Shown: piece after piece, positions 3,516 through 15,809 of the stretch
Layout: every line of letters begins with the position of its first letter
Numbering within the stretch: position 1 is the first letter of the stretch
From: a bacterium
GTDB taxonomy: Bacteria; SM23-81; DAOVCL01
DNA: 38,736 nt
Assembly: GCA_029932675.1 (NCBI GenBank)
Contig: JAOZPP010000026.1
Span: 1 to 38,736, forward strand
Direction: 5' to 3'
Position numbers and translations under genes: made by a program
Notes under the pieces: generated by a model
Database searches by the model: none
What the model was told of the DNA's origin: nothing
What the model saw: the letters and a program-made list of their open reading frames with translations, nothing else

Positions 3516-3579
3516 TCCCGCGTAAATTGCTTTTTTGGGTTTAATCCTTTCGTCAAAGAGCCTATAGGAGGTGAGGAAA

Positions 3580-6363
3580 ATGGGTTTGGTTAGATTCCGA
3601 GGGGGAAAGGTCCTCAAGGCCTTAGTCTTTCTTTTATCTTCTGCCTGTTTCATATTCCTCATTTTAGCCTCACCAGGGAGATGTAGGCACCATAAGAGGT
3701 CTACGTCTATTCCTTCTCTTGGTGAGCAGATGGGGAAGTGCAACCTGATAAAAGGGGATAGTGCTTTCACTCCCATGGTGACCTGGATCGGGGGAAGGAA
3801 CTTAGCTAGGATTCCCATCAGCAATGGGGGGTTGACCGGTCTCTATGAGGCCCCCTCTGACTGGGATGGAACCTATGATGGGGATATAGTTGAGGGTTAC
3901 ACTGTTTGGAACGGATATTGTGCGGAGTATCCAACAGGGACAGGCCAATATTACCTTTTCTCCTCTGGCATCTGGGTAGGAGCCATCTGTCCTATCATAG
4001 TTGGTGGAGACACGATTGGCTATGAGCCCAGGGTAGCCACGGGTGCCTATACCCCGGATATGAGTGTGATGAGCCCACTCTATTTGAGCAGCCAGATAAT
4101 TCCAGAGGGTGAACCTGGGGCAGGGGATTACCTTTTTGCCCGCCCTGGAGTTGATCCGGAACCATATCAAAGGCGCTGGCCCTATGCCGACACTGCCTCC
4201 ATTAATCCTAAGAGGAGGGCATACTTTGGCACGGACGAATATGATCTGGATCGAGGTCGTGGGGATATGGTCTCTCTTCAAGATTCCTGGGCGGTGATGG
4301 GGGATTGGATCCCCGAAGATGAGGGAAATTTCTTGTGGCCCTCCTCTGGCTATGATACAAAAGGTCTGGGCATCCGACTTGAGCAGAGAACCTACTCTTG
4401 GGGTTACGGGTTTCCTATTGGGGATTTTATTTACCTTAACTACAAAATACGGAATATGAATGACTTCCCCCTGGACAGCGTATATTTAGGATTTTATATC
4501 GACGGGGACGTAGGGCCAGCTCCCCTTACAGGTTTTGAGGGCCCAAATGATGATCTGACTGGCTTTGACAGATCTCGCCATTTAGGATATATCTATGATC
4601 ACAATGGATGGGAGCCTGGGTGGCTATCTAAAGGAGGTTACATAGGTGTTGCTCTCTGTCAAACTCCGACCAATCCAGGTGACTCGGTCCAATTGGGAAT
4701 GACTGCCCTCTCCACCTGGGTGAGGGAGGACCAAGGGGATGAGGGTTTCGTTGATCATGAAGGGATGGATGCCCTTAAGTATGCCGAGCTTACTGGTATA
4801 AACATCCCTAATGATAACCAACCCGATGAGATATTTGAGGTCTTGACTATCCCTTGTGATGTTAGATTCCTTATTTGCAGTGGGCCATACCACACTTTAG
4901 CCCCGGGAGAGGAGATAGAGATAACCCTCGCTATTGCTGTGGGCTCAACTTATGATGAGTTCATAGCCAATGTGGATTCGGCAATTTCGTTCTATCAAAG
5001 GGGATATGTCTATTTCGATGATGATCCACCGGAGGTCAATTGTTGGCTTTCTGCGGTAAGGCCAGTTTACTCGGCTCCAGGGACGGAGGATACCATTTCC
5101 GTCTATGTGGGAGACCCGTCTGGGGTCTCAAAGGTTACCGCCCAAATCGGAGGTAAGGAAGGTGAGATCTTGGATAGCCTTGATCTCCCGGTGGGCAAGG
5201 GGGGATTCTGTAAAGGAATCTGGAGGAATCCACCAGATAAAGAAAGTGATTATACCGTAAGCGTTACGGCTAAAGACCGATTAGGCAATGAGAAAAGTTG
5301 GGCTAATGTCTGTGGCTTTACCACAAAGCGCTTTGAAAAGACAGCAGATATTTTGGTTGTTGATGATGACAATTACAACTGCCCTAACTGGGGACCTACT
5401 CGCAAACCTTATGAGATTTACTATACCACTGCCTTAGAGGCTGAGGGTCTCCCTTATGATCTTTGGAGCGTCTACCTTTATGGTATTCCCAGTGATACCA
5501 TTATGAGCCAATATGCCGACGGGGTGGTCATCTGGCTAACCGGGGACAAAGCTGGATTAACCCAGGAGGAGAAGGATTGTATACGATCTTTTCTGCAGGA
5601 TGCAGGGGGCAATATCTTTCTCTCTGGACAGGAGATCTATCAGGATGATCCCGTATTCTTTCTGGAGAACTTTTGGATATACCAGAAGGGTGATGTGGAC
5701 TTAGCCAATCTTTGGGTATCAGGGGTGGAAACCGATTCTATGACTATGGGGATGAGATTCAACTTAGAAGGTGGAACAGGCGCTGGTAACCAGAGATACC
5801 CGGATAGGGTGGAGCCAAACACCTGGTTGGGGGCTAGCTCGATATTCACCTACGAGGGGTACTCCGGTTCCGGCAAGGCTACGGCAGGGGTTAAGTTTGT
5901 TAATGATAAATACAAGGCCATCTACCTCGGCTTTGGGTTTGAGGCCATAGGTTCTGATAGCCTGAGAAGGGGATTTATGAAGAACGCCATTGAATGGTTG
6001 ACCAGACCAAGTGGCATTGGTCGGGAAGATAAAGGGGGAACTCTTCCCGAACCCTTTTCCCTCTCTCAGAACTACCCTAACCCCTTCAACTCAACGACAG
6101 TGATCAGCTACCAGTTGTGCCATTCCGAGCATAGGTCAGCGGTCAGTCCGCTCCACACCACCCTGAAGATATACAACATCTTGGGAGAGGAAGTAATTAC
6201 CTTAGTTGATGGGGAACAGAGAGCAGGAGACCATCAGGTTACTTGGAATGGGAGAGATAGCGATGGGAAGGAGATGTCCAGCGGGATCTACTTCTGCAAG
6301 TTATGGGTGAAAGGGGATAGGTTAGAGGTGGTAAGGACACGAAAGATGCTCCTTTTACGTTAA
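3580..6363 (+). CDS. Large exported protein with type IX sorting domain
   Basis: The start is placed at ATG 3580: the upstream in-frame GTG at 3571 lies inside the Shine-Dalgarno AGGAGGTGAGG and cannot be the start. About 927 residues. A basic N-terminus and hydrophobic segment ([21 protein letters not shown]) form a signal peptide. The first ~450 residues are rich in Gly, Asp and aromatic residues and look like a beta-rich surface domain without a named family. Around residues 465-560 there is an Ig-like stretch, followed from about 590 by a [11 protein letters not shown] domain with [14 protein letters not shown] and [11 protein letters not shown], the layout of ThuA/class I amidotransferase-like folds seen in exported proteins. 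The C-terminus is a sorting domain ([12 protein letters not shown] ... KMLLLR). It sits 64 bases after the previous gene, so the two are probably co-transcribed. Confidence 0.8.
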
Positions 6364-6569: not shown

Positions 6570-8960
6570 CTACCTTTCCCTCCAGATCTGTTTATATCTC
6601 ACATAATCCTTGAGGACCATCTTCAGGTAAGCCCTTGTCTGGCTGTAATCTATCCTTTCTACAAAGCAGTCTATATCCAGGGGTTCCTTTAGTCCCCTCT
6701 TCCACCTGAGCACGTTGGTTGGTCCTCCATTGTAGGCGGCCAAGGCCATCTCCGGTCTTCCGCCAAAACGATGCAACTGTTGGAGCAGGTAGCGGATTCC
6801 CAGGTCTAAATTGAGATCCATCTGGTAAAGTTCCTCAGGGGAAGTATGCATCCTTCCCAGAGAATGGGCCACTTCCTTCCCTGTGGAGGGCATAATCTGC
6901 ATTAGACCCAGTGCCCCAGATCTTGAAGTGGCAGCAGGGTCAAACCTGCTCTCCCTCCTAATCAGGGCTAAGACGAAGAGAGGGTCCAGATTAGCTCTGT
7001 GGCATCGCTGCCAGACTTCATCTAAGAGATGAACTGGGTAGAGCCAGCGGTGAAGATAAGGGGGGAGGTCATTTTGCCCATTTTTCTGAGCCCAGCTCTC
7101 TATCCAAGAGGCGACCTTATGGCCTCTTAAGTTCCAACCAAATTGGGAATATAAACTCAAAAGGTTAGAAAGTGCTAAAGGATCTCCCCATTCAGCCTTT
7201 TCCACCCAGGTAAACTCCGCTTTGGCTTCCTTTATCAACCCAAGATTTGCCAAGAGCCTTCCCTTTTGGAAGTGGGGATTTTCCTCTAAGGACGGAGAAC
7301 CACTGAGGCGGAAATTTCTCCTTACCCAATGGGCGAAGTGGGATCTCTCCCTGACTATTTCCCTGAACCTTTTGACCTTTATCATCAATCCGGAGGATGA
7401 ACTGATGAAGGGAGTGAATTCATCCCTCCCACTAAGGAGGGATTTAGCCTTTAAGCCATAATAGGAATAGGGATACTCCTGGGCCAATTCTTTCAGCACC
7501 CTCTTCGCTTGATTGATCTTGCCCATCCTTTGATAGATCTTGAATCTCCAGTAGAGGGTGGTCTTCAAAAAAGGGCTTTGTCCATAGAGCTGGGAGAACC
7601 GTCTCAGCAATGAAAGGGATCTGAGCCAATCTTCGGTTTGGTAATAGCAGAAGGCAGCCCTCCACAAGGATTGATCTGCCAGCCTCCCTTGAGGATAATG
7701 GGTTTGGGCCATCAAATATTGAGTGGCTGCCCCGGGGTAGTCCCCGCTTTCCTCCAAGACCCTTCCAGCCAAGAATAGTGCCTTCTCCGCCTCAGCTTCC
7801 TTTGGGTAGCGGAGGGAGAAGTCCCGGAACCTCCAAAAGGCATCATGCAAGTTTCCCAGTTTCCAATCACATAGGGCAACCTTGATTTTGGATTTGATGG
7901 CGAAAGGACTTTGGGGAAATCTTGCAATTACAGATAGATAGGTTGACCGAGAGGGTAAATATTCACCCAGCCTGAAGAGTGAGCTCGCTTTCAGGAAGGT
8001 AGCTTCATCTGCCCATCTTCCTCTTGGGTGGGAATTTAGGTAGGCCTCAAATTGCTCGATGGCTTCCCTCCACTTCCTTTTGTGGAAGTAGACCCTGCCT
8101 ATAAGGAATCTCTCCAGAGGGTTGAGTCTTTCCCCTTTTATTCTCTTAATTTTCTCTACTACCTTACAGGCAAGGGGATTCTGAGGGAAGGATTGAATTG
8201 CCCTAATGTAGTGGTTCAAGGCTGTGGAGGTCTTTCCCATCGATTCATAAATTTCCCCAGCCTGTAATAGGAAGTCGATGTTGTCCCCCCAGTTCTTAAT
8301 TATGTCCAGGGCCTGGGGGAAATTCCCTAACTGGATGTGAGCTTTTACTATCAGTCTCTGAGATCTCCGGTAGAGGCTGCTCTGCTCTGGGACCTGGGAG
8401 AGGAGATGAACAGAGTTTGCTGGTTCCCCCAAATTGAGGTAGCATTTCCCAAGAAGATAAAGGGCATAATCGTAAAGGGGGTAATCCCTGTTGAGGGTTT
8501 TCAAATGATCTATTGCCTTTCGCCACTCCCCTAATTTAGTGAATGAGTATCCCATTAGGAAGTGGAGAGCAACCCCCTTCTCCCCACAGGCAGCCAGCCA
8601 CGCTGTAGCGGCGCGGTAGTTCCCCTCCTTCAGGTATAATCTGGCCAAAGCCCATTTGGCCTCTTCTGCTTGGGGGAGATGGTAGAGGAGAAGCTGATAA
8701 GCTCTGATCGCTTCTCCTCCCTGGCCGAGCTTCTCATAGCAACGGGCTAACCTTTGCCTCCATCTTATCAGAAGCTCTGGATCTGCCCAGAGGGAGATAA
8801 GATCGAGGTAATCCCCTTTGGCCCTTTGATAATCCCCCCAGATGAAGGCCTCCTCCGCATCCCTCTCTAACCTTGCCAGCCTTTGCGGGAGTTGAGCAGC
8901 AGGGGCAGGGTGGAGGGGAAGAAAGAGCCAAACTCCCACTATTATTGATCCAAATCTCAT
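6570..8960 (-). CDS. TPR-repeat soluble lytic murein transglycosylase
   Basis: The ATG at 8960 is preferred to the TTG at 9005, because it starts directly at a signal peptide (MRFGSIIVGVWLFLPLHPAPAAQ). 796 residues: an all-helical array of tetratricopeptide-like repeats (residues ~25-600, with many ALARLYLKEGNYRAA-type units) followed by an SLT domain near 645-795. The catalytic glutamate lies in IRRESRFDP (about E670), followed by GALGLMQIMPSTG and AAYNGGP, the standard family-1 transglycosylase motifs. It cleaves the MurNAc-GlcNAc bond of peptidoglycan to form 1,6-anhydro ends, in the periplasm. Organisation matches Slt70, with a longer TPR region than the E. coli enzyme. An 8-bp inverted repeat (GCAGAGCG, 6516-6562) just past the stop could act in termination but lacks a T-run. 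Confidence 0.9.
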   Translation of the reverse strand: MRFGSIIVGVWLFLPLHPAPAAQLPQRLARLERDAEEAFIWGDYQRAKGDYLDLISLWADPELLIRWRQRLARCYEKLGQGGEAIRAYQLLLYHLPQAEEAKWALARLYLKEGNYRAATAWLAACGEKGVALHFLMGYSFTKLGEWRKAIDHLKTLNRDYPLYDYALYLLGKCYLNLGEPANSVHLLSQVPEQSSLYRRSQRLIVKAHIQLGNFPQALDIIKNWGDNIDFLLQAGEIYESMGKTSTALNHYIRAIQSFPQNPLACKVVEKIKRIKGERLNPLERFLIGRVYFHKRKWREAIEQFEAYLNSHPRGRWADEATFLKASSLFRLGEYLPSRSTYLSVIARFPQSPFAIKSKIKVALCDWKLGNLHDAFWRFRDFSLRYPKEAEAEKALFLAGRVLEESGDYPGAATQYLMAQTHYPQGRLADQSLWRAAFCYYQTEDWLRSLSLLRRFSQLYGQSPFLKTTLYWRFKIYQRMGKINQAKRVLKELAQEYPYSYYGLKAKSLLSGRDEFTPFISSSSGLMIKVKRFREIVRERSHFAHWVRRNFRLSGSPSLEENPHFQKGRLLANLGLIKEAKAEFTWVEKAEWGDPLALSNLLSLYSQFGWNLRGHKVASWIESWAQKNGQNDLPPYLHRWLYPVHLLDEVWQRCHRANLDPLFVLALIRRESRFDPAATSRSGALGLMQIMPSTGKEVAHSLGRMHTSPEELYQMDLNLDLGIRYLLQQLHRFGGRPEMALAAYNGGPTNVLRWKRGLKEPLDIDCFVERIDYSQTRAYLKMVLKDYVRYKQIWRER

Positions 8961-9066
8961 CTCTTCTAAGGAACTAAAATTACCTTGTAGGTCGATATTT
9001 GCCAATTGGGATCCAATGAACTGGGCTGAGAAACCCTTAGCAACTAAAGTCTCCCTGAATTAGAGG

Positions 9067-9094
9067 AATATATCTTTTAAATTTTTAAAGTCAA
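9067..9094 (-). promoter_or_regulatory. Promoter of the lytic transglycosylase gene
   Basis: On the minus strand TTGACT (9094-9089), 16-base spacer, TATATT (9072-9067). It reads towards the ATG at 8960 and lies back to back with the plus-strand promoter at 9131, about 37 bases away. Confidence 0.6.
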
Positions 9095-9130
9095 GCCATC
9101 ATTTTTCTAAAAATTGGAGTTAAAAAGACC

Positions 9131-9159
9131 TTGACAGAGGCATAATTTTTTGGTATAAT
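9131..9159 (+). promoter_or_regulatory. Perfect-consensus sigma-70 promoter
   Basis: TTGACA at 9131-9136, exactly 17 bases, TATAAT at 9154-9159: both hexamers match the consensus completely. Transcription would start near 9166, giving a leader of only about 15 bases that consists mainly of the GGAGG ribosome site at 9171. Such strength is unusual for a gene of this type and suggests either high expression or repression by a bound regulator. Confidence 0.85.
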
Positions 9160-9180
9160 TACACCATCAAGGAGGTAAGG

Positions 9181-9891
9181 TTGGTAAAAAATGTAAAGAA
9201 AAAGATAGAGAGGTTCAACCGTAAGTTCAAATCCAAGGGGGGGATAGCTCAATTCAGAAAGATGGTAGAGAGGCGTAATACTCTTCAGCAGATAGGGAAC
9301 CATTTTGGTTTCTCTCGGCAGAATGCTTGGCAATTATACAATGACCTCTATGATGAACCCTATTCTAAGATACGGAAGGAGAGGACTACTCTGGCGATAG
9401 AGAGGAGGACGAACACCTTAGAGGGAAAGTTGGAATTGTACCGCAAAGGAGGGAGTGCTTGGAGAAGGATATTTTATACTAAGGTGGTGAGGGAGGAGGC
9501 GATGCAGAGGGGGTTGGAGGTAAAACTTATAGGTAACACTTCCTCTTATGTGGGACTTTATATTAATGGTTACCGGGTTATCGTCTCTGGGACAAAGACC
9601 AAAAGGGTTTTCTATAACACCAAAGGGAGAGAACCTCAGATCTACTACCGTTTTCACGTCTCGCCCCGGGAATGCGACTTTTATGTCTTCGTCTTGGATA
9701 GAGGGAAGAAGAATTATCTCTTCTACATAATCCCCCGCGAAAAGATAGAGAGCCTCAGGGGGGTTAATCTGAAGGCCAATTACGATGTCCAACTACCTCC
9801 CGGATCATCCGGAAGGCCCCCTTACAACTTAGGGAAGAGCAAGTATAAGGAGCATCTGGGGGCATGGGATGTGTTTGCCTCTCCAAAGTGA
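9181..9891 (+). CDS. HTH protein with PD-(D/E)XK-like C-terminal domain, unknown function
   Basis: Start is TTG 9181, five bases after GGAGG (9171-9175); the nearby ATG is out of frame. 236 residues. The basic N-terminus is followed by a helix-turn-helix at about residues 33-56 (TLQQIGNHFGFSRQNAWQLY), like those of site-specific recombinase or resolvase tails. The C-terminal part (about 95-215) has alternating strands: VKLIGNTSSYVGLYINGYRV, VIVSGTKTKRVFY, YYRFHV, CDFYVFVLD, KNYLFYIIPREKI. This order resembles the fold of group I intron-type PD-(D/E)XK endonucleases, where the equivalents would be DxxL and VQVKxA; here those catalytic acids and the key Lys are not obvious, so the fold would be inactive. 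The fold assignment is inference. It overlaps the lipoprotein gene by 28 bases and is probably co-expressed with it. Could be an autoregulator of the divergent promoter pair. Confidence 0.6.
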   Translation: MVKNVKKKIERFNRKFKSKGGIAQFRKMVERRNTLQQIGNHFGFSRQNAWQLYNDLYDEPYSKIRKERTTLAIERRTNTLEGKLELYRKGGSAWRRIFYTKVVREEAMQRGLEVKLIGNTSSYVGLYINGYRVIVSGTKTKRVFYNTKGREPQIYYRFHVSPRECDFYVFVLDRGKKNYLFYIIPREKIESLRGVNLKANYDVQLPPGSSGRPPYNLGKSKYKEHLGAWDVFASPK

Positions 9892-10778
9892 AACCCATCT
9901 ACTTTTTTCTTATACCCCTTCTTCTCCTTGGGTGTGCAAAAAAGAAGGGGACGAACCACGATGGGAATCCCCCCCCGTTCTCTCCGGCAGTCAACCTCTA
10001 CCCTCCATCTCATATCACCGGGCGCTCTCTGCTCATCTCCTGGAGCCCCTATAGGGGCTCAGACTTTAAATCCTACCTGCTTTACCGTTCAACCACTACC
10101 CAAGTGGATACCACCTCCCCTCTTCTGCACACCGACACCACCGCTTATGATACGACCTTTTGCGATAAAGGGTTGGCAGAAGGGGTCCGATATTACTACA
10201 GGGTCTACGTTGCCGGCGCGGATAGCCTTCTGGGGGCAAGCGACCCCACCTCTGCGCTCACCAAGGGTGGTGACTATTGCTTCTACTTGCAGATGGGAGA
10301 TGGTTCTGGATTACCAGGGGGGGTAGTAACTATTCCTCTTACCCTTATTAGGTGTGCCCCTGTGGCTGGCTATACTGCTGTCTTAAAGTGGGAGAATCTC
10401 CCAGTGGACTCCTTCCATATAGAGCAAGGAGGTTACTTTGTAGATGGAAGCAGGTTCTACTTCGATAGTTTTAGTGTCCATTTGGAATCTGTGGATGACT
10501 CCACCAAGGTCATCGTGTTTGGAATGGCCGGTAATAGTCCCCCGATGAGGGCCAGTGAGGAAGCAGATACTCTAGCCTTATTTACCTTCTGGCTCAGCCC
10601 TGACTGGGATGGCCTCCCTATTCACCTTGGTTTTTTTACGGAATTCCCTTACAGAGAAAATACAATCAGTGACCCTGCTGCTACTTTATATTGCGCATCA
10701 AGTGCTTATCCAGCCAATACTTGCCCACCCAATCCAGCAATAAAGCTATATGATGGAGAGATAACCCTTCAGCCATAG
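9864..10778 (+). CDS. Lipoprotein with FN3-like and cohesin-like domains
   Basis: 304 residues. The N-terminus (KPIYFFLIPLLLLGCAKKK) is a lipoprotein signal with lipobox LLLGC, so Cys24 would be lipidated and the protein anchored in a membrane. Residues ~45-130 form a fibronectin type III-like domain (LLISWSPYRGSDFKSYLLYRS ... GVRYYYRVYVAG). Residues ~138-290 resemble a cohesin-type sandwich (GGVVTIPLTLIRCAPVAGYT, VLKWENLPV, LALFTFWLSPDWDG). Start: ATG 9864 has AAGGAG ten bases upstream; an alternative GTG at 9888 overlaps the previous stop as GTGA and would still keep the signal. The 28-base overlap with the HTH gene suggests translational coupling. Role unknown, perhaps surface scaffolding. 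Confidence 0.7.
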   Translation: MGCVCLSKVKPIYFFLIPLLLLGCAKKKGTNHDGNPPPFSPAVNLYPPSHITGRSLLISWSPYRGSDFKSYLLYRSTTTQVDTTSPLLHTDTTAYDTTFCDKGLAEGVRYYYRVYVAGADSLLGASDPTSALTKGGDYCFYLQMGDGSGLPGGVVTIPLTLIRCAPVAGYTAVLKWENLPVDSFHIEQGGYFVDGSRFYFDSFSVHLESVDDSTKVIVFGMAGNSPPMRASEEADTLALFTFWLSPDWDGLPIHLGFFTEFPYRENTISDPAATLYCASSAYPANTCPPNPAIKLYDGEITLQP

Positions 10779-10787
10779 GGAGGAGAG

Positions 10788-10988
10788 ATGGCAGTCAACT
10801 GCGAAAACTATGATGAGAACCTAAAATTCTGCAACTGCACCTACCCTGGTTGTCCCCACAAGGGCAACTGTTGTTCCTGTATCAGATACCACCTAAAGAG
10901 GAAAGAACTTCCCGCTTGTTGCTTTCCGGATGGAGTGGAGAAGACCTATGATAGGACTTTTGATAAGTTTATTGAGGTTTACGGATAA
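10788..10988 (+). CDS. Small cysteine-rich DUF6485-type protein
   Basis: 66 residues with nine cysteines (C5, C15, C17, C22, C28, C29, C31, C44, C45) and the recognisable string CENYDENLKFCNCTYPGCP followed by CCSCIRYH. This matches the DUF6485 pattern of small, probably metal-binding cytoplasmic proteins whose function is not known. A strong GGGAGGAGAG ribosome site precedes the ATG. It lies nine bases after the lipoprotein gene and six bases before gatA, so all may be one transcript. The cysteine spacing could hold two zinc ions or an iron-sulfur cluster; that is inference. Confidence 0.8.
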   Translation: MAVNCENYDENLKFCNCTYPGCPHKGNCCSCIRYHLKRKELPACCFPDGVEKTYDRTFDKFIEVYG

Positions 10989-10994
10989 GGGAAT

Positions 10995-12449
10995 TTGAAG
11001 CTCCATTTGCTACCAGCTCATAGTCTGCTTGCACTCTTAGGGAGAGGAGAGGTTTCCGCCGAGGAGGTCGTCTCCTCTTTTTTGCATAGGGTGGAGGAAG
11101 TGGAGGGCGATCTGAATGCCTTTATTACCCTCTTCTCCCAGGATTCCCTCACCCAAGCGAGGGAGGTTGACAAACTACGGGCAAAAGGGGAGAGGGTGGG
11201 GAGGCTGGCCGGGGTTCCTATAGCCATAAAGGACAACATCTGTGTTCAAGGCAAGAGGATGACCTGTGGTTCCCGGATGCTCTCCAATTTTGTCCCCCCC
11301 TATGATGCCACCGTAGTGAGGAGGCTGAAGGAGGAAGGGGCGATCATCATCGGGAAGACCAATATGGATGAGTTTGCTATGGGTTCCTCCAATGAGAATT
11401 CCTTCTTTGGCCCGGTAAAGAATCCCTTTGATTCACAAAGGGTCTCCGGTGGCTCAAGCGGTGGATCAGCAGCAGCGGTGAGCGCTGGGGAAGCCCCTAT
11501 GGCCTTGGGTTCAGACACCGGTGGCTCTGTGCGGCTTCCCGCCTCCTTCTGTGGGGTTGTGGGCCTCAAGCCTACCTATGGGTTGGTCTCCCGATTTGGG
11601 TTGGTCGCCTTTGCCTCCTCCTTAGATCAGATAGGTGTCCTGACCAGGGATGTAGAGGACTGTGCTCTCCTTTTGGAAGTTATCGCTGGATACGATCCCC
11701 AGGATTCTACCTCCATCGATCAACATCTGCCCGATCTCGTCCTGGAGATGAAGAAGGGGATCAAGGGGTTGAGGGTTGGTCTTCCTGAGGAATACTTTTC
11801 CCCAGAGGTTGATCCTCAGGTCAAGGAGGCGGTGCTTAGGGCCGTAAATCAATTAACCCTTGAAGGTGTAGAAGTAGAGAGGGTCAATTTGCCTCACACC
11901 ACCAGTGCCATTGCTACTTATTACATCATAGCTGATGCAGAAGCCTCCTCCAATTTGGCCCGTTACGATGGGGCAAGATATGGCTATCGGGCTCAAGGAA
12001 CCAGGGTGCTTTTAGATATGTATAGCCGGACGAGGAACGAGGGCTTCGGCGATGAGGTAAAGAGGAGGATAATGTTGGGGACCTATGTCCTCTCCTCTGG
12101 CTACTACGATGCTTACTACCTGCAAGCGCAAAAGGCGCGCACCCTGATCAGAAAGGATTTTGAGGAAGCCTTCTGTAGATGTGATCTTCTGGTGACCCCT
12201 ACCTCACCGACTCCTGCTTTTAAGTTAGGGGAAAAGATGGATGACCCTCTGCTTATGTATCTCTCTGATAGCTTCACCGTCCCGGCCAACCTGGCCGGCC
12301 TGCCTAGCCTATCGATTCCTTGTGGAATGACACGGGAGGGGCTTCCTATTGGTATGCAGATAATAGGCCCCCCATTGGGGGAGAGCCAGATCCTTGGGTT
12401 GGCCTCTATTTATGAGCAAGTTGCTTCGAAGGGGAGAGATGGATTATGA
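10995..12449 (+). CDS. gatA: Aspartyl/glutamyl-tRNA amidotransferase subunit A
   Basis: 484 residues, the usual length. GatA frees ammonia from glutamine or asparagine and passes it to GatB, which converts misacylated Glu-tRNA(Gln)/Asp-tRNA(Asn). The amidase-signature catalytic triad is intact: K79 in IAIKDN, S154 in VSGGSSGGSAAAV and the second Ser in GSDTGGSVRLP (about S178). The start is TTG at 10995, preceded by a modest AAGGGA. The gene overlaps gatB by 11 bases (the gatB ATG lies before this stop), a typical coupled arrangement. No gatC is seen on either side, so the third subunit must be encoded elsewhere. Confidence 0.97.
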   Translation: MKLHLLPAHSLLALLGRGEVSAEEVVSSFLHRVEEVEGDLNAFITLFSQDSLTQAREVDKLRAKGERVGRLAGVPIAIKDNICVQGKRMTCGSRMLSNFVPPYDATVVRRLKEEGAIIIGKTNMDEFAMGSSNENSFFGPVKNPFDSQRVSGGSSGGSAAAVSAGEAPMALGSDTGGSVRLPASFCGVVGLKPTYGLVSRFGLVAFASSLDQIGVLTRDVEDCALLLEVIAGYDPQDSTSIDQHLPDLVLEMKKGIKGLRVGLPEEYFSPEVDPQVKEAVLRAVNQLTLEGVEVERVNLPHTTSAIATYYIIADAEASSNLARYDGARYGYRAQGTRVLLDMYSRTRNEGFGDEVKRRIMLGTYVLSSGYYDAYYLQAQKARTLIRKDFEEAFCRCDLLVTPTSPTPAFKLGEKMDDPLLMYLSDSFTVPANLAGLPSLSIPCGMTREGLPIGMQIIGPPLGESQILGLASIYEQVASKGRDGL

Positions 12450-14033: not shown

Positions 14034-15809
14034 ATGAAACCTTTTAAGCGATTGGGCTTTGATTTAAGCTATTTAGCGTTGCTCACCAAAAGGGGTGTAA
14101 AACCCTTGAGCCGCTGGGAGGCGGGGGTTACCGCTCGGAAGATAAGGGCATTGCGGTATCTGGGCTTGAAGACTGAGGTAGTGGAGAGGAGGCTTTTAAA
14201 CGGTGGCACAACTGATGAACTCATCTTTAGCAACTCCTCTAATTATCTGGACTTTTACAAAAACCGTTATGATAAGAGACCCATTAAGAAGGATTATGAG
14301 ACCATAATTACTGAGGGGTTCTTATTTGGGTATCCAAGCTGTTGCACCCACAATTTCGCGGAAAATGGCTATACCAAGAACAGGTATGGGGGTAACGGCC
14401 AGGAGATCCTCTTCCATTGGGTGTGTCCGGAGTGTAGGATAACCCCTTCACTTCTTCCCTATTATGAGAAGGTCCACAAAGAGTGTAAAGGCATATTTAC
14501 CGAGCAAGCTATATCAAACAGAGGTTTACTGAGGACCTTAGTGCCTGCCGCCGCGCTATCCCTCCTTGTCTCGGTTGTACCAACCCATGTTAGGGGGGAA
14601 GACCCCCACTGGCTTCCCCTCGGAGCAGGTGATCCAGATAATGATTATCTAACCTACCCTGAAGAGGTGCTCTTGGGGACCCATCTGAATTATTTCCCCT
14701 TAGATAGCTTAGCTGGACCGGCCAAGGCCCTGGAGTTCAAAGCGATCATCGATTCCTTGCCTATAGTCTCTCTCTTTACTGCCCCAGATTCCACCTGTTA
14801 CATAATTGAGCACCCAGCCTATGGGATGGAGACGTGTCAGGTCTGCGGTGCAGTAATGAATATGGGATTTGTAGAGGTCATCAACCCGATGCGGGGGTTA
14901 TCCATTCAAATACCCTATATGGGGCTTCATTTCCTGGAAAACGGTAGCTTTTCCTTCGATGGAACCTACAATTCAGGCAGGATCGATGTGGGATTACTGA
15001 AGGAGGTGCTGGCCCATTATGACACCACCCATTATTCCATAGTTACCCCCAATGACGAGGATGTCGATGGTTTGAACGATGGTTACGAGGATGACTTTGG
15101 CACCCAGCCAAACAACCCTGATACTGATGGGGATCAATTGGTCGATGGGGCTGAAGTAGCGGAGGAGCTAATTAAGGCAATTTCACAGTTGCCAGTGGTG
15201 GTTTGGCCCGAGGAGCCACCAAATGATTCAATCTACATTGAATACTGGGAAGAGGATGGGATGGAGACCTGTGATATCTGTGGGATTCTGATGAATATGG
15301 GTGACGTTCGTATTGTGAATCCACTGGAGGCCAAGGAGATCAGCTTTCCCATAATCGGGCTTCACTACTTAGCTCATGGGAGATTTGCTTATGGGGGGAG
15401 TCGTAACTCTGGGGAGGTCGATGCCTTACAATTAGCCCAGATCCTGGGGAAACAAACCATAGTTTCTATGTTAGAGCAGCTTTTCGATAAGGAGGATTTT
15501 GGCCTAAGGAGCTACCCCACCCCCTTTAACTCTACCACTGTTATCAGTTATAGCCTAACACAGCCCGGCTATGTCACCCTTACAGTTTACAACCTCCTTG
15601 GTCAAAGGGTTAAGAGCTTGGTTGATGAATTCAAACCATTAGGGGAATATAAGATCCTCTGGGATGGCAGGGATGATCAGGGGCGGGAGGTGAGTTCTGG
15701 GGTATATATTTACCAGTTGCGCATTGGGCCTGGAGGTGAGCACTCCGTCCCAGGGGGAGGAGAGGGGAGAAGTTTTATTAGATCTGGGAAGCTAATGTTG
15801 ATAAGATAG
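14034..15809 (+). CDS. DUF483-like domain fused to duplicated Cys module and type IX sorting domain
   Basis: 591 residues; strong GGAGGTG upstream. Residues 1-155 look cytosolic and DUF483-like: GYPSCCTHNFAENGY, then HWVCPECRITPSLLPYY and a final HKEC. Residues ~163-190 contain a hydrophobic stretch (TLVPAAALSLLVSVVP) ending in a cleavage-like THVRGED, as if a signal peptide were buried inside. Next come two copies of a ~70-residue module: copy 1 (about 255-325) METCQVCGAVMNMGFVEVINP ... GLHFLENGSFSF ... SGRIDVGLL; copy 2 (about 407-477) METCDICGILMNMGDVRIVNP ... GLHYLAHGRFAY ... SGEVDALQL. Between them is a calcium-binding-type Asp-rich segment (DEDVDGLNDGYEDDFG, NNPDTDGDQLVDG). The end is a sorting domain in which NYPNPFN is replaced by SYPTPFN. 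I recognise no family for the module; function unknown. Confidence 0.75.
   Translation: MKPFKRLGFDLSYLALLTKRGVKPLSRWEAGVTARKIRALRYLGLKTEVVERRLLNGGTTDELIFSNSSNYLDFYKNRYDKRPIKKDYETIITEGFLFGYPSCCTHNFAENGYTKNRYGGNGQEILFHWVCPECRITPSLLPYYEKVHKECKGIFTEQAISNRGLLRTLVPAAALSLLVSVVPTHVRGEDPHWLPLGAGDPDNDYLTYPEEVLLGTHLNYFPLDSLAGPAKALEFKAIIDSLPIVSLFTAPDSTCYIIEHPAYGMETCQVCGAVMNMGFVEVINPMRGLSIQIPYMGLHFLENGSFSFDGTYNSGRIDVGLLKEVLAHYDTTHYSIVTPNDEDVDGLNDGYEDDFGTQPNNPDTDGDQLVDGAEVAEELIKAISQLPVVVWPEEPPNDSIYIEYWEEDGMETCDICGILMNMGDVRIVNPLEAKEISFPIIGLHYLAHGRFAYGGSRNSGEVDALQLAQILGKQTIVSMLEQLFDKEDFGLRSYPTPFNSTTVISYSLTQPGYVTLTVYNLLGQRVKSLVDEFKPLGEYKILWDGRDDQGREVSSGVYIYQLRIGPGGEHSVPGGGEGRSFIRSGKLMLIR

Follow-up and report, generated by a model that had tools for sequence, protein, structure and literature searches.

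The window analysed here, a single stretch of 38,736 nucleotides, contains an ORF whose product joins a predicted HTH to a degenerate nuclease-like domain, flanked by a divergent lytic transglycosylase gene and a lipoprotein-like ORF (Table 1). Comparison with a sister species (G001) confirmed at the sequence level that ORF 9181-9891 is a real gene, as a full-length homolog with 81% identity was present and dN was far below dS. The divergent gene was recognised in Pfam by its SLT transglycosylase domain (E 6e-27) and TPR repeats. The GTGA overlap of the ORF with the lipoprotein-like fn3 ORF (window positions 9888-9891) is present in both species.

Table 1. Features of the locus (window coordinates) and homologous stand-alone HTH proteins at other loci
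Feature	Position	Strand	Basis and remarks
Divergent lytic transglycosylase with TPR repeats	6570..9005	-	probable start ATG at about 8961
Promoter-like site TTGACT-N16-TATATT for the transglycosylase	9067..9094	-	10/12; read from 9094 down to 9067
ORF promoter TTGACA-N17-TATAAT	9131..9159	+	exact, 12/12; TGG before the -10
Ribosome-binding site AAGGAGG	9169..9175	+	read from sequence; 5 bases before TTG at 9181
ORF for HTH plus degenerate PD-(D/E)XK protein	9181..9891	+	236 aa, TTG start; homologs, model
Helical HTH domain at the N-terminus, approximately residues 6-56	9196..9348	+	recognition helix 46-56; model, homologs
Degenerate PD-(D/E)XK domain, residues 89-236	9445..9888	+	2ost Z 13.2, profile comparison
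Hairpin NG..VIVSGTKT, residues 129-140	9565..9600	+	former Gln/Lys catalytic positions; homologs, profile comparison
Lipoprotein-like ORF, weak fn3 match	9888..10778	+	GTGA stop/start overlap with ORF 9181-9891; ORF listing starts it at 9864
Stand-alone two-HTH proteins, second HTH homologous	L033:5764-6213; L041:1351-1725; L004:1402-1836

Elsewhere in the window, a small Cys-rich DUF6485 protein (10788-10988) is encoded just upstream of two putative gatA-like and gatB-like ORFs. Two large ORFs (3571-6363 and 14034-15809) clustered as mutually similar and have an alike C-terminal stretch, perhaps a sorting tail.

Promoters and neighbouring genes

The original prediction placed the ORF under a perfect promoter opposed to one for the transglycosylase gene, and both sites were found, with 36 bases separating their -35 boxes and with conserved copies aligning in the sister species. 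With the start site placed from the position of the -10 box, the leader would be about 15 bases long. The region from 7500 to 11000 held five promoter-like sites including that of the ORF, against a mean of 3.6 in shuffles; the number of sites is therefore not above chance, but the quality of the ORF promoter is. Twelve sites in the window matched TTGACA-N17-TATAAT with at most two mismatches (2.6 expected). The exact sequence occurred 15 times genome-wide compared to 0 for the reversed control, indicating that the strong consensus promoter is real but not unique in the genome. Two homologs from the small candidate phylum of G006 (L008 and L010) have an exact TTGACA-N16-TATAAT about 250 bases upstream, which leaves a leader some 220 bases long; Rfam gave no match there.

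As the two promoters are divergent and are kept together with the gene order in the sister species, the protein might be a local repressor that binds within the 9067-9160 gap and lowers expression of the transglycosylase gene as well as of its own operon. The GTGA overlap in both species also means that both flanking genes are envelope genes. However, only the two genomes from the window's genus showed the divergent arrangement and the transglycosylase neighbour, and neighbours differ in the 11 loci outside it (L022-L032). The gene directly upstream in those loci is a putative folD-like ORF in six and a helicase/exonuclease in three, and a DUF362 iron-sulfur gene lies downstream in six of the 11. 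In two loci (L024 and L029) the ORF filter used for listing neighbours lost the homolog itself, as an opposite-strand ORF was longer.

No conserved operator was detected by searches for inverted repeats, direct repeats or shared words. Inverted repeats (at least 7 matched bases per arm, gap up to 8), sought in the 260 bases upstream of the 15 homologs, gave no candidate above chance. Among repeats in the gap, examined in both species, a 13-base direct repeat is not kept in the sister species. No 9- or 10-mer was shared among eight upstream regions above the level of 15 shuffles, and no shared words turned up other than the promoters. The suggestion that the protein represses both promoters is therefore not supported, given the genus-restricted neighbour and the missing operator, and we consider local repression unlikely.

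Predicted fold and the former active site

Structure prediction confirmed the proposed HTH and nuclease-like strands. The AlphaFold model, built from 15 homologs (a set that includes one truncated sequence, L012, and the near-duplicate pair L016/L017), had a pLDDT of 83.4 and a pTM of 0.64, and consists of a helical N-terminus with the HTH, a helical linker, and a helix packed on a mostly antiparallel sheet. When the model was compared with all PDB chains, the top Foldseek match was I-Ssp6803I (2ost; E 3.3e-4, TM 0.36 by query and 0.55 by target). The same structure ranked first in VIA-align, with a Z of 13.2 and 123 residues aligned at 2.7 A between model residues 89 and 236, whereas the second entry reached Z 9.2. 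BFVD structure matches included a phage PD(D/E)XK protein. The expected PF11645-type fold was thus recovered rather than an unrelated one. Weaker agreement came from a profile-profile comparison of 13 core domains with 10 PF11645-type sequences, at E 8.4e-6 and a probability of 83%; an earlier, thinner comparison had given 45%. Sequence searches of the PDB by phmmer and profile returned histone H2B, PBP1b and hydroxylases, all chance-like, and I-Ssp6803I was not among the matches listed.

Structure matches to the HTH alone, which included sigma region 4 and recombinase domains, did not exceed Z 5.4 and were thus all low-scoring. SRQN at residues 45-48 was invariant in all 15 homologs, and invariant residues in the recognition helix argue for the reading of a specific sequence. 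They likewise count against a structural or repair accessory, that is, a protein that would use its dead nuclease domain to bind damaged or branched DNA, in the manner of Hjc-like folds, while the HTH serves as an anchor and no transcription is regulated. Hjc resolvases do appear lower in the list of fold matches, at Z 8.8, and the helicase/exonuclease gene lies directly upstream in three of the 11 loci outside the genus, but it is not the direct neighbour in the remaining eight, and we regard such an accessory role as improbable, slightly more so than local repression.

The claim that the catalytic positions are lost was borne out for the Gln and Lys but only partly for the acid. All 10 PF11645-type sequences have Tyr35, Asp36, Gln49 and Lys51, and we take the last three to be catalytic. 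The SPARDA DREN domain, an active nuclease, keeps D41/Q60/K62 (PMC12205087), a set that parallels Asp36/Gln49/Lys51. In our protein, Gln49 maps to residue 134 (I, N, A, S, T or H in the homologs) or 136 (S or A), and Lys51 to 136 (S in 12, A in 3) or 138 (T in 13, S in 2). Neither candidate Gln column contained Gln, Glu or Asp in any of the 15 homologs, and neither candidate Lys column contained Lys. Counting back without gaps from the aligned G111 places the equivalent of Glu11 at residue 100, where the homologs have T, I or V. For Asp36, hhalign leaves a gap beside V124, and pairing around the NG turn would put it at 123 or 125; position 125 is acidic in 6/15, Lys or Arg in 7/15 and Gly in 2/15. 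A full catalytic set, at these or other positions, was present in none of the 15.

Conserved residues of the domain are Y99, N129, G137, T140, Y155, R157, D166, K198, Y201, S220-K221-Y222 and W229. If the active site had been rearranged and the nuclease were still active, it could draw on the acid at position 125 in six homologs and on the conserved R157, K198, K221, Y99 and Y155. However, position 125 is basic or Gly in the other nine, the Gln and Lys columns are empty of suitable residues throughout, and D166, the sole conserved acid of the domain, is Asn in one homolog. We therefore consider retained activity very improbable.

Distribution and selection

The window protein matched no Pfam family at E up to 5, and the 15 homologs gave scattered weak Pfam matches only (best 0.02), PF11645 not among them. 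NCBIfam gave nothing above cut-off and weak sub-threshold matches for four proteins. PADLOC assigned the window protein to 0 families, with weak matches (best 0.002) in one or two of the 15 members each.

Outside the genome of origin, a single-protein search of 98 genomes identified full-length relatives in G001 and in G006 (43%), and four further matches in three genomes, all short. By profile search, the G006 phylum has the gene, always as one copy, in 13 of its 17 genomes, including all nine of high quality, whereas the window's own phylum has the gene in two of four genomes. A domain-wide profile search identified 7 of 386 genomes, five with full-length proteins and two with the HTH only. 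The named genome collection yielded 14 loci, namely 12 family members (one ended by a contig end) and two HTH-only proteins. The core-domain profile alone, searched against the 386 genomes, returned the same five and a weak match in G195 with in-frame stops, and revealed no active fused ancestor.

Between the window and the sister species, dN was about 0.11, and dS, at about 1.75, was close to saturation; by part, dN was 0.05 for the HTH and 0.12 for the dead nuclease domain. The ORF protein is 81% identical between the two species, much like GatB, a core protein, at 78%. The gene is single-copy and, judged by these comparisons, under purifying selection in the HTH and the dead domain alike. 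The low dN and GatB-like identity indicate that selection maintains the dead domain, and a decaying selfish gene does not fit. GatB, used as a yardstick of descent, was matched in 16 of 27 genomes, too few to separate vertical descent from transfer. No relatives of the ORF protein were found among phages, plasmids or viral contigs, which makes a current phage gene unlikely, and no PF11645 relatives were confirmed in viral contigs.

A possible regulatory role and comparison with known systems

What the analysis shows is the predicted fold, a catalytic set that has been lost, and a conserved, single-copy gene retained across the G006 phylum. Our preferred explanation, to which we give a probability of about 60%, is that the ORF encodes a domesticated, catalytically dead protein of homing-endonuclease type that acts as a DNA-binding regulator. 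Under this explanation, an I-Ssp6803I-like PD-(D/E)XK domain would have lost its metal-binding and catalytic residues and become fused behind an HTH. The HTH, through its SRQN recognition helix, would read a specific DNA site, while the dead domain may provide oligomerisation and additional contacts to DNA or a partner. Regulation would be exerted on chromosomal genes, the majority of which probably lie away from the protein's own locus. We infer the DNA binding, oligomerisation, regulation and targets, as well as descent from an intron enzyme.

A role as DNA-binding regulator is plausible, and is favoured by the fold match, the loss of Gln and Lys, the invariant SRQN, the occurrence of the same HTH in stand-alone two-HTH proteins, purifying selection, single copy, retention in the G006 phylum and the precedent of WhiA. 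It is weakened by the low Z of the HTH matches, the profile probability of 83%, the lack of an operator, the lack of a conserved neighbour as a possible target, and the absence of the gene from two of four genomes of its own phylum. More tentatively, and at less than even odds, an independently domesticated PD-(D/E)XK homing endonuclease may have become a global regulator of transcription that defines its lineage and is kept throughout a candidate phylum, in parallel to WhiA in Gram-positive bacteria; the invariant recognition helix would then probably imply a conserved regulon. A literature search that covered few subscription papers listed no report of such a protein.

If true, this would be a second, independent conversion of a selfish endonuclease into a cell regulator, and a second homing-endonuclease fold serving as a core regulator. 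It would also propose a function for a family lacking a Pfam or NCBIfam entry whose gene is kept by two little-known bacterial lineages. The homologs are conserved and single-copy in these little-known phyla, and a single binding experiment could reveal their DNA target.

Among known systems, I-Ssp6803I (2ost, PF11645 PDDEXK_5) is the best fold match over residues 89-236, and a C-terminal (S/N)..Y..AW stretch was also aligned by profile comparison. I-Ssp6803I is tetrameric. Unlike I-Ssp6803I, the ORF protein lacks the catalytic set, has an added N-terminal HTH, and is encoded by a chromosomal single-copy gene. A search of the genome of origin for PF11645 at E up to 10 gave no sequence match, and none exceeded the curated cut-off for the ORF protein; Rfam, including its group I introns, gave no match at gathering score in the window or at seven homolog loci. 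Location in a group I intron is a feature of the founding PF11645-type member, and free-standing copies exist, for example at phage loci. By sequence score, catalytic residues and intron location, the ORF protein lies outside PF11645.

The SPARDA DREN domain and Hjc resolvases share the fold class of the ORF protein, with Z from 5.7 to 8.8, but are active nucleases. The stand-alone two-HTH proteins (L033 from Desulfobacteraceae, and those of G232 and G051) have a homologous HTH, with FGFSRQNAW in L033, but differ in having no nuclease domain and an extra HTH in front. A proposed functional analogue is WhiA (DUF199), a transcription factor which combines a degenerate LAGLIDADG homing endonuclease domain with an HTH and is conserved lineage-wide (PMC3781837, PMC3984707). 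No WhiA or LAGLIDADG Pfam match was obtained for the window protein or the 15 homologs. As WhiA has a LAGLIDADG domain and a C-terminal HTH, whereas the ORF protein has a PD-(D/E)XK domain and an N-terminal HTH, the two would appear to be works-alike proteins of independent origin.
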